Source: a virus
Strand: one strand, 5' to 3'
Virus record (IMG/VR): IMGVR_UViG_3300014501_000012
Location: 1-64,000 of that record
Length of the DNA stretch: 64,000 bases
Shown here: positions 36,911-62,576 of the stretch, one piece after another
Numbering within the stretch: the stretch's first letter is position 1
Layout: each line of letters begins with the position of its first letter
Made by a program: the position numbers and the translations under genes
Notes under the pieces: generated by a model
Told to the model about the DNA's origin: nothing
Databases searched by the model: none
Seen by the model: only the letters and a program-made list of their open reading frames with translations

Positions 36911-39900
36911 CGATCGTCGGCGAGGGGATCATCTGGCTCAGGCCGTCGACGGCGGGCTTCGCCGAGGAGGCCGAGGGCAAGCTCAAGTCCTCGCTCGCGT
37001 TCTTGGGCGGCGGGAGTTCGGTCGTGGGCGGGATCGTGGCCGGGACCCTCGCGGCCGGCGCGGCCGTCACCATCGTCACGGCGAAGATGGCGATGGACTT
37101 CCAGAGCGCCGAGGCCAAGCTCTCGGGAACCGCGGACATCTCAGCGAAGGCCGCGGCCAAGATCGGGACGGCCTTCCTCAACACGATGGGGTCCTCGGCG
37201 TTCTCCGGCGAGACCCTTCTCAAGGCGTACACCCCGGTCTCGGCCCAACTCGCCCGGGTCGAAGGCCGGACCCTCTCGGCCACGCAGGCGACCCGGTTCA
37301 TGGCGGTCGCGTCGGATCTGGCGAAGGCCTCGGGTAAGGATCTCAACACCTCGACCTCGACCCTCGCCCAGACCTTGTTCACGTTCGGCATACGGACGAA
37401 GGACGCCGCGGGCGCGGCGAACCTCCTCTTCAACGCCGCCCGGATCACGAACACCCCGATCGACTCCCTCTCGAACATCATCGACAAGCTCCACGCGAAA
37501 CTCGGGACCCTCGCGCCGACCTTGAAGGACACGGCCTCGATCATCGCCCTCCCCTCGGTCGCCGCGCTCGGGAGCCGCGGGGCGATGCAGGTCAGTTCCG
37601 CCCTCGAGCACCTCCTGACCCAGGCGTCGGCGACCTCGTCGGGGATCACGAAGGCCGTGACCGCGGCCCAGGCGAAACTCACGACGGCGAGCGCCGACGT
37701 CGCCAAGGCCCAGCTCAAACAGCAGCAGGCCCAGGAGGAGGTCACCGCGTCGGGGACGAACACCCTCGCCCAGCAGATCAAAATGTCAAACGCCCAGGAC
37801 GCGGTCACCGCGGCGGTCGGGAAGCAGACCCTCGCGCAGCAGGCCCTCACCGCGGCGCAAGGGGACAACGTCGCGGGATCGACCCAGGCCAAGGCGCTCC
37901 TCGACCAACTCGGCCTGTCGTCCCTCTACGTCCACGGGAAGTTCGTCGGGCTCCGCGAGGTCATCGCGACCTTGGGCCCACGGCTCGCGGCGATGACCGA
38001 GCAGAATCGGAACCTCGCCCTGCAAACCCTCTTTGGGACCGGCGCCGCTCAGGTCATGGGGCACGTGCTCGCGGGTGGCGTGACCGCTTTCGACAAGTCC
38101 ACGGCGGCGGTGTCCCGACACAACGCGCTCGCCCACGCGGCGGCGGCGATCGCCAAGACCCTCTTCGGACAGCTCGACGTGCTCCGGGCGTCCGTCGAGG
38201 ACGTCGCGGTCAAGCTCGGACAGATGCTCCTCCCGTACATCCAGAAGTTCGTCCACCTTCTGACCGAGGGCTTCGGGTGGGCGTTGAAACACAAGGAGGT
38301 GATGATCGCTCTGGCCGGGGTTCTTGCCGGCATCGTTGTCGGCTCACTCATGGCCGTCGCAGCGGCGTTGCTCGCGGTCGACGTCGCCGGGCTTCCGATC
38401 TGGTTGATCGCCGCCGCGATCGCCGCGCTGGCCGTGGGCGTGTTCGAGGCCTACAAGCACATCCCGGCTTTCCGGGACGAGGTCCACAAGCTCGGCGACG
38501 ACATCAAACGGATCAACTGGAAGGACGTCGAACGGGACGTGAAGTCCTTCGCCAAGGTCGTGGGCAAGGATCTGACCGAGGCCTTCCGCGACGCCTCGGC
38601 GTGGCTGAAAGAGGGGATGAAGATCTTCGACGCGCTCCCGGGTCCGCTCAAGGACATCGTCTCGCCGATCCTCGGGATCGTCGTCGCCGTGAAATTCGTT
38701 GCCCAGCACTGGAAGGCGGCCTTCACCGATATTGACCACGCGACACGGGACTTCGTCGGCGGTCTCGAGGCCGCGTGGCGGGACTTCCTCGACCCGATCG
38801 TCCAATGGGTCGTGGATTTTTGGCACTCGCTCGTGAACTTCTGGCACACCTACGGCGGGGAGATCACCCGGATCACCCGCGGGCTGTTCGGCCTGATCGA
38901 ATCCGTCGTCCGGACCTTCATCCACGTGACGACCGACATCTCGAAGGCCCTGTTCGACCTGCTCATCCCGATCTTCCGCGCCGGGTGGGCACTCGTCAAG
39001 GGCGTCTTCCAGGCGGCCTGGGACTTGATCGTGGGCGTGGTCAAGGTCGCGTGGCGGACGGTCGAGGGCGTCATGGAGGTGGCGAAGGACGTCGTGCTCG
39101 GGATCTTCGAGATCTTCGTCTCGCTCCTGACCGGGCACTGGTCGAAGGCCTGGAAGGCGCTCGTCCATATGGTGGTCTCGGTCAAGAGCGACATCGTCAA
39201 CGCAGCCAAGGGCGTCCTCGAGGCCGTGCTCAACGCCGTCGGCCGGGCCGCCCTCGATCTCTACAAGGGGGCGTTCGCTGCGGGGAAGGATCTGGTGATG
39301 GGATTGTGGAAGGGGATCAAGGAGGCCGCGCATCTGGCGACCGACGCCGTGAAGTCCGTCGGCCACGGGATCCTCTCGGCGGCCAAGTCCGTGCTCGGGA
39401 TCTTCTCGCCCTCGATCCACTTTCAGGAGTACGGGAAGGGAACCATGCAGGGCCTGGCCAAGGGGATCCGGGACAACGCGAACCTCCCCCAGGCCGAGCT
39501 CAACAAGCTCAACCTCCACATCGCACCGAAGGACAAGCAGAAGGCGGTCGACTGGTTCAAGGACGTCGCCAAACTCGCCAAGCAGAACCACGAAAGCGCC
39601 GGATCAGCGGCCGGTCAGCTCGCCCACCTCTTCGGCGCCGGCCCGTCGGGGTCTGACGCGGCGAAGAAGGCTGCGACCCAGCTCAAGCAACTCACCGAGG
39701 CGATCACACTCCGCAAGTACCTCCAAGCGATGGCCCACCAGAACCACCAGGATGTGACGGCCGGGAACAAGACAAGCCGCGACGGGTCGAGCCAGGTCGG
39801 CAAGCACGTCGACATGGCATCACTCCACGCGATGACCAACCACCGTCAACTCCTCGACGAGCAGAAAACTCAGACGGCGATCCTCCGCCAGTTGAAGATC

Positions 39901-58804: not shown

Positions 58805-59068
58805 ATGAGACCAGTGCACCCGGAGGACAAGTCCGTCGTCGAGATCCTGCTACTCGGCGCGGCGGTCGGCGCGTTCATCACCGGGGCGGTCCTCGCCCTG
58901 GCGCTGTCGCCGGGGGAGATCGGCCCGGAGGTCGGGGTCTTCGTCGGTGGCGTCGCCGTGGCGGTGATGTTCGTCGGGCTCGCGCTCGCCGTCCACTTTC
59001 ACCGTCAGGCGCGGTTTGCTGAGGCCCGCGACTTCTGGGCGTGGAAGCGCCGCGGGCAGCTCCGGTGA
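58805..59068 (+). CDS. Small membrane protein, 87 aa
   Basis: ATG 58805 with AAGGAGG. Two hydrophobic helices (about 13-34, EILLLGAAVGAFITGAVLAL; about 40-62, VGVFVGGVAVAVMFVGLALA) and a basic C-terminus. Unknown function. Possibly superinfection exclusion or a membrane anchor for DNA processes, given the ParB-like neighbour. Confidence 0.55.
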   Translation: MRPVHPEDKSVVEILLLGAAVGAFITGAVLALALSPGEIGPEVGVFVGGVAVAVMFVGLALAVHFHRQARFAEARDFWAWKRRGQLR

Positions 59069-59778
59069 AAGCGGCGGTCATCCCGATCGGTCGGATCAAA
59101 CCCTCCGAGGTCAACCCCCGCTTCGAGCCCCGTGAACTCGAGGGCCTGACGCAGTCGATCCGGCAGTACGGGATCCTCGAGCCCCTGTTGGTCCGGGCGA
59201 TCCCGGGTGACCGGGAGCACGTCGAACTCGTCGCCGGTTCGCGCCGGCTGGCGGCAGCGAGACTCGCCCGGCTGAGCGAGGTCCCGGTTGTGTTCATGGC
59301 GGCGATGACCATCCCCGACCAGCGCGTCCTCTCGTTGACGGAAAACCTCCACCGGTTGGACATGACGCCGATCGAGAAGGGTGAGACGTACTTACAGATC
59401 GCCCGGGAGCGCGGGATCAACCAGACCGAGGTGGCGAAGCTCTGCTCCGTCTCCCCGTCCGAGGTGAGCAACTTCATCGGGCTCGTCCGGCGGGCCTGTC
59501 CCGAACTTCGGGAGGCGGCGCACCTAGGGACCGTCCCGCTTTACGTCGCCATGGAGTTGGTCAAGCTCCCCCACGAGCGCCAGCAGGCGCGACTGGCATC
59601 GAGGAAGACCAAACACAAGACCGGCCAGGAGCGGGTCCGCAACTCGGCGACGTCGGGGTACGAGCAGTACTCGGTCAATCTCGGGCGCGCCCGAAGCGCC
59701 TTCCTCAACGAGGACTGGGAGACGGCCGTGGAGTACCTGGAGAAAGCCGTGGCGATGTGCGAGCGGCGGTTAGCGTAG
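59065..59778 (+). CDS. ParB-like nuclease-domain protein, 237 aa
   Basis: GTG 59065 in a GTGA overlap. Residues 1-90 form a ParB N-terminal domain: IPIGRIKPSEVNPRF, LTQSIRQYGILEPLLVR, VELVAGSRRLAAARLA, VPVVFM. SLTENLHRLDMTPIEKGE and an HTH (RGINQTEVAKLCSVSPSEVS) follow, as in ParB/Spo0J proteins. No ParA is visible nearby, so plasmid-style partition is unproven; it may act as a transcription or replication factor. Confidence 0.82.
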   Translation: MKAAVIPIGRIKPSEVNPRFEPRELEGLTQSIRQYGILEPLLVRAIPGDREHVELVAGSRRLAAARLARLSEVPVVFMAAMTIPDQRVLSLTENLHRLDMTPIEKGETYLQIARERGINQTEVAKLCSVSPSEVSNFIGLVRRACPELREAAHLGTVPLYVAMELVKLPHERQQARLASRKTKHKTGQERVRNSATSGYEQYSVNLGRARSAFLNEDWETAVEYLEKAVAMCERRLA

Positions 59779-61150: not shown

Positions 61151-61192
61151 ATGGAAAGCCTATCCGATCTGGCGGCGAGCATCCCTAAATGA
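61151..61192 (+). CDS. Possible 13-aa leader peptide of the initiator gene
   Basis: ATG 61151 with GGAGG 5 nt upstream encodes ESLSDLAASIPK after Met, then TGA at 61190-61192. The stop overlaps the ATG of the next gene (AAATGA). The downstream gene has no ribosome binding site of its own, so its translation probably depends on reading this peptide. Confidence 0.4.
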   Translation: MESLSDLAASIPK

Positions 61193-62058
61193 CGGCGAAG
61201 AAGCCGCAGGAGGGGGTCGTCCTCAAAACCAGGTTCGCCCAGGTCCCCGAATGGGTGGCCCTGCACCCCGCCATTCTCAAGCACCCTACGGCCCTGGCCG
61301 CCTACGTCCACCTCTTCCTGCTGGGAGATTTCAAGGCGCGGATCACCACCAGCGACTGGCGGGAGCTGAGCGACGTGACCGGGTGGTCGAAACCCACGGT
61401 CATGCGAGCGATGAAGGTGCTCCGGGATGCCGGGGTGGTGGTCAGGGAAGGGGCTGACCTGCGGCTGCCCATGGACCTCCCCGGTATCAAATCTGACACC
61501 GAAGCCCCAGATCTCGGTATCAAATCTGATACCGGACCGCGTCAGATCCGAGACCCGATCGCGTCAGATGTGAGACCCCCTCCTTTTAGTACAGAGAATT
61601 CAGAGGTTCCTCATAGTGTCGACGCTGTCGCGTCGACCGACATTCGGTCTCTGTGCGATCTTCTCTCCGAAGAAGTGGGCAGATACCTTGGCGATCCGAT
61701 CAAAGCACCAGCGGTCACTGCCCGGTGGACAAACGACATGCGGCTCCTACTTGAAAAGGGGCCTCTCCACCGAGCCAAGTCGGAAGTGATCGCACCTGAC
61801 CGGGTTCGTCGGTGCATTCGGGTCGTGTTCGATGAGTTGGCCGAACCAACTGGTAGCCGCGGGTTCTGTTGGGCGGCGCAGATCCGCTCCCCCGGCGCCC
61901 TTCGGGATCATTGGGATCAGGTCGCTGAGGCCGCCAAGCAATCACGAGCAACTGGGTCGAACGGCAAGAAAGATCCACTCCGCCGCGGCCTCCCTTCTCT
62001 CAGCGATCTGTGGAAAATCGCAGAGGGTGCCGATCAACAAAAGGAGCTGACCCCATGA
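61189..62058 (+). CDS. Winged-HTH replication initiator-like protein, 289 aa
   Basis: ATG 61189, coupled to the small leader peptide. Residues 10-90 look like a winged helix as in phage and plasmid initiators (AYVHLFLLGDFKARITTSDW, VTGWSKPTVMRAMKVLRDAG, VVVREGADLRL). A flexible middle (about 95-145) contains the repeat GIKSDT and is encoded by an iteron array. The C-terminal domain is helical (FDELAEPTGSRGFCWAAQI). The layout, DNA-binding domain - linker with origin - C-terminal domain, mirrors lambda O, and the next gene fits a helicase loader. Confidence 0.65.
   Translation: MTAKKPQEGVVLKTRFAQVPEWVALHPAILKHPTALAAYVHLFLLGDFKARITTSDWRELSDVTGWSKPTVMRAMKVLRDAGVVVREGADLRLPMDLPGIKSDTEAPDLGIKSDTGPRQIRDPIASDVRPPPFSTENSEVPHSVDAVASTDIRSLCDLLSEEVGRYLGDPIKAPAVTARWTNDMRLLLEKGPLHRAKSEVIAPDRVRRCIRVVFDELAEPTGSRGFCWAAQIRSPGALRDHWDQVAEAAKQSRATGSNGKKDPLRRGLPSLSDLWKIAEGADQQKELTP
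61483..61637 (+). other. Candidate replication origin: four iterons within the initiator gene
   Basis: Four 18-bp sites at 61483-61500, 61516-61533, 61538-61555 and 61560-61577. The first two read GGTATCAAATCTGAYACC; the last two are CGCGTCAGATNNGAGACC. Written in one orientation all share TCAGAT-NN-GA-N-ACC. Starts are 33, 22 and 22 bp apart, all multiples of 11, so the sites lie on one face of the helix. An AT-richer stretch follows (61579-61616, including TTTTAGTA and GAATTC), then a perfect inverted repeat, GTCGACG and CGTCGAC (61618-61637). Layout resembles the lambda origin. Confidence 0.65.
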
Positions 62059-62576
62059 CCATGATTCCTCAGGAAGATCCGAACCCTCGAGCACGGGCCG
62101 TGATCTCTACGCTGCGCCAGGCCGGGTGTCGGCCGGAGTTCGGATTCGACCAGGAGCAGGCCGAGGAACTATGGGAGACGAAGCTCGCCGCGTTCACGCT
62201 GCCCATGTGCGCGGCGGCGGCGAACGCCTGGATCGAGGCAGGCGACAGAGAGTTCCCGACTCTGGGCGAGTTGATGACGCTGGCCCAGGGCTTCGCCATA
62301 GCTGAGCGCGAGGAAGTGCAGCGGCGGGAGCGGATGAACCGGGACCCCTTAGCGATGGTTGTTTGCCCGGAGTGTTTCGACGAGCCAGTCGGGTGGGTCG
62401 AGGTGATCGAGCTGGCCGGCGCGAGGGCTCTGCGCCCGTGTTCGAGGTGTCTCCCCGATAGGTACCGAGCCTGGCGCGGCGGCCATTTCGCCCTAGGCCA
62501 CGACGAGGCCCGGTGCCGGGATACGTGGTGCGTCGAGACGGTGAGGCGGCGCAAGCATGGCCGAAAGGCTTCCTGA
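62055..62576 (+). CDS. Helicase-loader-like zinc protein, 173 aa
   Basis: ATG 62055 with AAAGGAG, overlapping the initiator stop. The N-terminal 85 residues are helical (ARAVISTLRQAGCRPEFGF, EELWETKLAAFTLPMCAAA, FPTLGELMTLAQGFA), similar in style to phage helicase loaders or G39P-like factors. The C-terminal half has CPECFDEPVGWVEV, CSRC and later Cys/His, a zinc ribbon. Next to an initiator with an origin, a P-like loader role is likely but not shown by a diagnostic motif. Confidence 0.55.
   Translation: MTMIPQEDPNPRARAVISTLRQAGCRPEFGFDQEQAEELWETKLAAFTLPMCAAAANAWIEAGDREFPTLGELMTLAQGFAIAEREEVQRRERMNRDPLAMVVCPECFDEPVGWVEVIELAGARALRPCSRCLPDRYRAWRGGHFALGHDEARCRDTWCVETVRRRKHGRKAS

Follow-up and report, generated by a model that had tools for sequence, protein, structure and literature searches.

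Iteron-like repeats inside an initiator-like gene: a predicted lambda-type replication origin in a probable actinophage

The stretch of viral DNA considered here (the window) comprises the first 64,000 nucleotides of an 84,831-bp IMG/VR record, IMGVR_UViG_3300014501_000012; genome-wide figures use the full record. Close to its end, a gene for an initiator-like protein carries, within its own codons, four iteron-like sites, an AT-rich tract and an inverted repeat, and it overlaps a small second gene. An earlier reading of the letters by a model, made without database searches (the sequence-only reading), had taken this arrangement for a lambda-type replication origin in an actinophage, and our analysis follows up that proposal. 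The features are as follows.

61189-62058, plus strand: initiator-like gene, 289 amino acids, assigned on profile matches and C-domain homology
61483-61500, minus strand: iteron-like site 1, dyad GGTATCAAATCTGACACC, exact core on the minus strand
61516-61533, minus strand: iteron-like site 2, GGTATCAAATCTGATACC, arranged as GGTATCA-AATC-TGATACC with perfect 7-bp arms, exact core on the minus strand
61538-61555, plus strand: iteron-like site 3, CGCGTCAGATCCGAGACC
61560-61577, plus strand: iteron-like site 4, CGCGTCAGATGTGAGACC
61580-61619, no strand: AT-rich tract, candidate DNA-unwinding element, 60% AT against 33% genome-wide
61618-61637, no strand: perfect inverted repeat, 8-bp arms and 4-nt loop, GTCGACGC-TGTC-GCGTCGAC
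62055-62576, plus strand: gene of 173 amino acids, candidate helicase loader by position, in ATGA overlap with the initiator gene, CxxC pairs in its C-terminal half

Four sites within the linker-coding part of an initiator-like gene

The core TCAGATNNGANACC is present in exactly 4 copies in the 84,831-bp record, all of them within gene 61189-62058, and no further copy exists in the full record at 0 to 1 mismatch. All 4 of the 18-bp sites that the sequence-only reading had placed at 61483, 61516, 61538 and 61560 are there, and its intervals of 33, 22 and 22 bp are right for the 18-bp dyad frames. Some of its statements need adjusting. The shared TCAGAT-type core is found on the plus strand for sites 3 and 4 (exact cores at 61542 and 61564), but sites 1 and 2 hold it exactly on the minus strand only; since these two come close to perfect dyads (7 and 8 of 9 pairs), their plus strand can be read as the same core with one mismatch (TCAAAT). 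Placement on one face of the helix holds roughly, but the total of 77 bp amounts to 7.3 turns at 10.5 bp per turn, and thus “same face” is an approximation. The AT-richer stretch said to follow the sites was found 3 bp beyond the end of the last one, and it ranks among the joint second richest AT 40-mers of the 84.8 kb, with one AT island richer. The perfect inverted repeat is also present, with arms longer than the 7 bp first given; because perfect 7-bp inverted repeats occur at 1.3 per kb here, it weighs little by itself.

The sites span three codon frames, encoding GIKSDT twice (sites 1 and 2, in frame), QIRDP (site 3) and SDVRP (site 4). When the gene was shuffled among synonymous codons, none of 20,000 recodings reached four exact cores (at most 2 were seen), and the observed count of repeated 14-mers or 18-mers was matched by no recoded 120-bp region across 1000 shuffles. 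Out-of-frame 12-bp repeats number 16, against 2.5 expected (0/1000 shuffles); the same statistic gives 29 against 2.6 for the positive control, lambda O, whose iterons are known from experiment, while 15 other genes of the same phage, used as negative controls, all fall short of significance. From the three frames, the recodings and the out-of-frame excess together, it follows that the repeats are under constraint at the DNA level, beyond protein coding.

The 61189 product comprises an N-terminal part of winged helix-turn-helix (wHTH) type (residues ~15-90), a linker (~95-145) and a C-terminal domain (137-249), and the sites do lie, as had been proposed, in the codons for the flexible middle of a wHTH protein. 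Profiles of wHTH type match its N-terminal half, as do, weakly, PHROG 391 (O-like, 8e-5) and PHROG 186 (DnaD-like, 4e-4); the PHROG 391 match is confined to the helix-turn-helix stretch, no stretch passes alone, and no Pfam family scores over its cut-off. In hhalign, the C-terminal domain aligns with that of actinophage replication initiators at a probability of 96.3% (P 1.5e-9, score 61.5, shuffled maximum 20), and residues 137-249 are, by this profile comparison, homologous to the C-domain of those proteins. Secondary structure from AlphaFold2 (AF2) agrees with the domain layout, at poor model confidence; run without an alignment, AF2 gave models too poor for fold searches. Close relatives of the protein were found neither by a pattern scan of IMG/VR and GTDB genomes nor by tblastn against 50,697 phage records at E 1e-3; 397 actinobacterial genomes returned spurious matches only, and a PDB sequence search gave nothing significant.

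Recurrence of the arrays in other initiator genes

Two surveys addressed the repeats and spacing in related genes. One covers 56 non-redundant genes that carry the C-domain of the window protein, with the WSYVDDN type described below excluded; these have very varied N-terminal domains and are classed as actinophage-type by C-domain, not by host. Repeats before the C-domain exceed synonymous shuffles in 52 of the 56, so that the outcome that the sequence-only reading had set against itself, relatives keeping the protein without the repeats, is not what is seen. At distances that are not multiples of 3 there are 1606 repeat pairs where 206 are expected, and at 22 bp there are 191 against 11. The repeats lie mostly 240 to 30 bp ahead of the C-domain. 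The peak in AT content falls 60 to 40 bp ahead of the C-domain codons (t = 7.8), at the place of the AT tract in the window; in 40/56 genes the AT-richest 40-mer follows the repeat centre on its 3′ side. The clearest parallel is relative L197, in which ACCCCGGCACAGATTTCCGC occurs four times, 22 bp apart and in all three frames, ahead of a purine- and AT-rich tract. As for the spacing, values cluster at 9-11, 15 and 21-24 bp with no period dominant, and strict 11-bp phasing is therefore one solution among several: the linker repeats are kept, but exact phasing is common rather than universal.

The other survey, made first, concerns the WSYVDDN initiator family (PHROG 2149/1408; Phrann gp60 and relatives), represented by 68 non-redundant genes. 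Phrann was reached through distant tblastn matches from a RecE anchor, which itself gave no viral contig; 25 of 26 genome loci of the family are actinobacterial by title. Near-repeats at 11 bp make up 449 pairs against 25 expected from synonymous shuffles, in 58/68 genes, and those at 22 bp make up 187 against 16. Like the window gene, these genes have in-gene arrays phased at 11 bp and, in their commonest arrangement, an ATGA overlap with a small next gene, and some (15/68) share the C-domain motif of the window protein. Unlike it, they have a different N-terminal domain, marked by WSYVDDNGVG, and their iterons are short palindromes of the CTCGCGAG, CTCCGGAG and TCACTGAG types, in two clusters at codons ~60-80 and ~120-140. 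The window protein has no PHROG 2149/1408 match.

Most WSYVDDN genes also carry a tandem array with an 8-bp unit, (GGGGAACA)n, which adjoins the 11-bp array on its 3′ side, at about codons 140-160 (e.g., Phrann gp60, L004:15586-15617; L008-L123), whereas no such array was seen in the window gene. Near-repeats at 8 bp occur in 55/68 genes, with 1170 pairs against 48 expected, and since 8 is not a multiple of three, (GGGGAACA)n is under constraint at the DNA level. None of the papers found in the open literature gives this sequence. One member, L022, stands out among the actinobacterial matches by lying on a contig of 24 kb whose label names a betaproteobacterium, Rugamonas rubra; this may reflect either contamination or a real host jump.

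A predicted origin and the competing readings

Lambdoid phages are known to have in-gene origins (PMC7466680), and feature by feature the window has the lambda-like layout that had been claimed for it, with iterons in the linker of O beside P. Both lambda (NC_001416) and the window have four 18-bp iterons with dyad-like arms in initiator linker codons, with an AT tract lying towards the next gene and an ATGA overlap with that gene (O/P in lambda). The spacings are 20/24/23 in lambda O and 33/22/22 in the window, and the AT tract of the window (60% over 40 bp) is less extreme than that of lambda (78% over 41 bp). Lambda O and the window protein have no significant full-length similarity (tblastn best E = 1 to O-like genes) and, unlike lambda P, the next gene in the window has no detectable similarity to known families. 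The locus would work as a lambda-type origin without being assigned to the lambda O family by full-length sequence. A 10-mer, CAGAGAATTC, is common to the window (61592-61601) and lambda (L007:565-574, equal to lambda 39164-39173), and in both it sits 3′ of the iterons, in or beside the AT tract; this is probably coincidence.

Unique cores, DNA-level constraint, the AT tract, the gene overlap, C-domain homology and recurrence in relatives all point the same way, and we predict, with a probability of roughly 80%, that the locus is a lambda-type, host-dependent replication origin inside its own initiator gene. In the mechanism that we envisage, the 61189 product would dock as dimers on the four 18-bp dyads by means of its N-terminal wHTH domain; the bound sites, roughly on one helix face, would build an O-some-like complex and melt the AT tract at 61580-61619; and the C-terminal domain would then recruit the 62055-62576 product and/or a host DnaB-type helicase to the open strand. 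Gene scans and translations revealed no phage polymerase, primase or helicase (a search that was not exhaustive, most genes having had no family search), so synthesis would fall to the host replisome.

Several observations weigh against this prediction. Sites 3 and 4 are weaker dyads, with 5 of 9 pairs, and strict 11-bp periodicity, considered as a universal rule, had to be rejected, being confined to the WSYVDDN family and some others. The linker AT excess in the relatives may stem in part from the amino-acid composition of the linkers. GC skew, which had been put forward as a check, flips the sign of its slope at 60.0-61.9 kb in this record but does not consistently mark the initiator gene in eight relatives; it fails as a general test and is therefore weak evidence. 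The AF2 models of the 61189 and 62055 products are both poor, the recruitment of a helicase or loader by the C-domain is proposed by analogy with lambda O, and the identity of the 62055 product as a loader, proposed from its position, stays inconclusive.

The strongest competitor, though an unlikely one, is that the sites are mainly an operator through which the initiator or another phage regulator controls its own operon, with replication starting elsewhere. Dyad sites would suit a wHTH protein, a MerR-like gene (62687) is close by, and self-binding initiators often autoregulate. However, the sites are ~300 bp inside the coding sequence rather than at a promoter, and relatives with varied N-termini keep their arrays at the same linker position with the AT tract 3′, as in lambda. 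In any case, operator and origin are not mutually exclusive. Less probable still is a parS-like centromere for the ParB-like protein at 59041-59778: that protein, with ParB_N and HTH_ParB domains, is encoded just 1.7 kb upstream, and ParB proteins bind dyads, but ParA was not recognised, the four sites are all within the initiator linker, and relatives including Phrann have arrays at that position with no ParB among Phrann's listed genes around the initiator. The notion that the repeats merely follow from a peptide that occurs twice in a flexible linker, GIKSDT...GIKSDT, and have no DNA role draws on the in-frame pair at sites 1 and 2 and on a 33-bp distance that, taken by itself, departs only moderately from what synonymous recoding produces (14 against 3.0, p 0.008), but it is already contradicted by the recurrence of the core in two other frames at sites 3 and 4, by the 20,000 recodings, by the out-of-frame excess (p<0.001) and by out-of-frame repeats in relatives at ~8 times the synonymous expectation, so that amino-acid repeats alone, the other outcome that the sequence-only reading had set against itself, can be dismissed as an explanation both here and there.

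An in-gene iteron origin is of a kind already known, and the interesting part of the predicted origin is its apparent generality among actinophage-type initiators. In the lactococcal phages TP901-1 (ORF13) and Tuc2009 (Rep2009), the initiator binds direct repeats in its own gene, and these constitute the phage origin (PMC8965321); the replisome organizers of these Firmicutes phages resemble the window, by description only, in having repeats inside the initiator gene. The closest actinophage work that we found concerns the mycobacteriophage RepA prophages Miko, Rachaly and Jeeves, for which passages of PMC7157519 propose an origin only as within or beside repA. These are likewise actinophage initiators with an origin assigned to the gene or its flank, but they are RepA-like, plasmid-type initiators, and those passages mention no in-gene iterons. 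The open literature, subscription papers being outside our scope, yielded no description of in-gene iterons in actinophages. We see an even balance of chances that such origins are the norm across a large and mostly unstudied group of actinophage-type initiators, in which a conserved C-domain is retained while the wHTH half and the linker iterons change together as one 5′ cassette. If so, trading half a gene would be enough for a phage to change its origin specificity, with the helicase-recruiting half kept. If the predicted origin is correct, that of this phage would be pinned to ~150 bp, and for many others there would be a recipe for candidate origins (repeats just 5′ of the C-domain, an AT tract 3′), each testable by cloning one short fragment. 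In phages far from lambda, one stretch of gene would then encode a protein linker and an origin at the same time.

The next gene and the neighbourhood

The product of 62055-62576 has no match to known families in profile searches. Its similarity to loaders is in the shuffled range by hmmsearch, scores 18.2 by hhalign against decoys at ≤12.3, and comes with an AF2 model at a predicted local distance difference test (pLDDT) score of 50; homology to the small W-motif proteins was considered and rejected, the similarity not being significant. Judging by eye from their sequences, the relatives encode small W-motif proteins, AAA+ DnaC-like ATPases or a DnaB-like helicase at this position, and the shared place speaks for a loader role of the 62055 product. 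Look-alikes of DnaB-type helicases or AAA+ DnaC-type loaders replace the W-motif protein in L024, L028, L032, L106, L108, L110 and others, an apparent case of non-homologous replacement of loader genes.

Genes before the initiator are RecE-, RecT-, ParB-, WhiB- and exonuclease-like. The WhiB gene supports an actinobacterial host, and with it the label of actinophage that had been given from the letters. No Rfam family was found in 56-64 kb. Two ParB_N-like proteins, at 59041-59778 and 72182-73771, are encoded in the record with no recognised ParA, and the second appears to be fused to a DNA methylase-like region.
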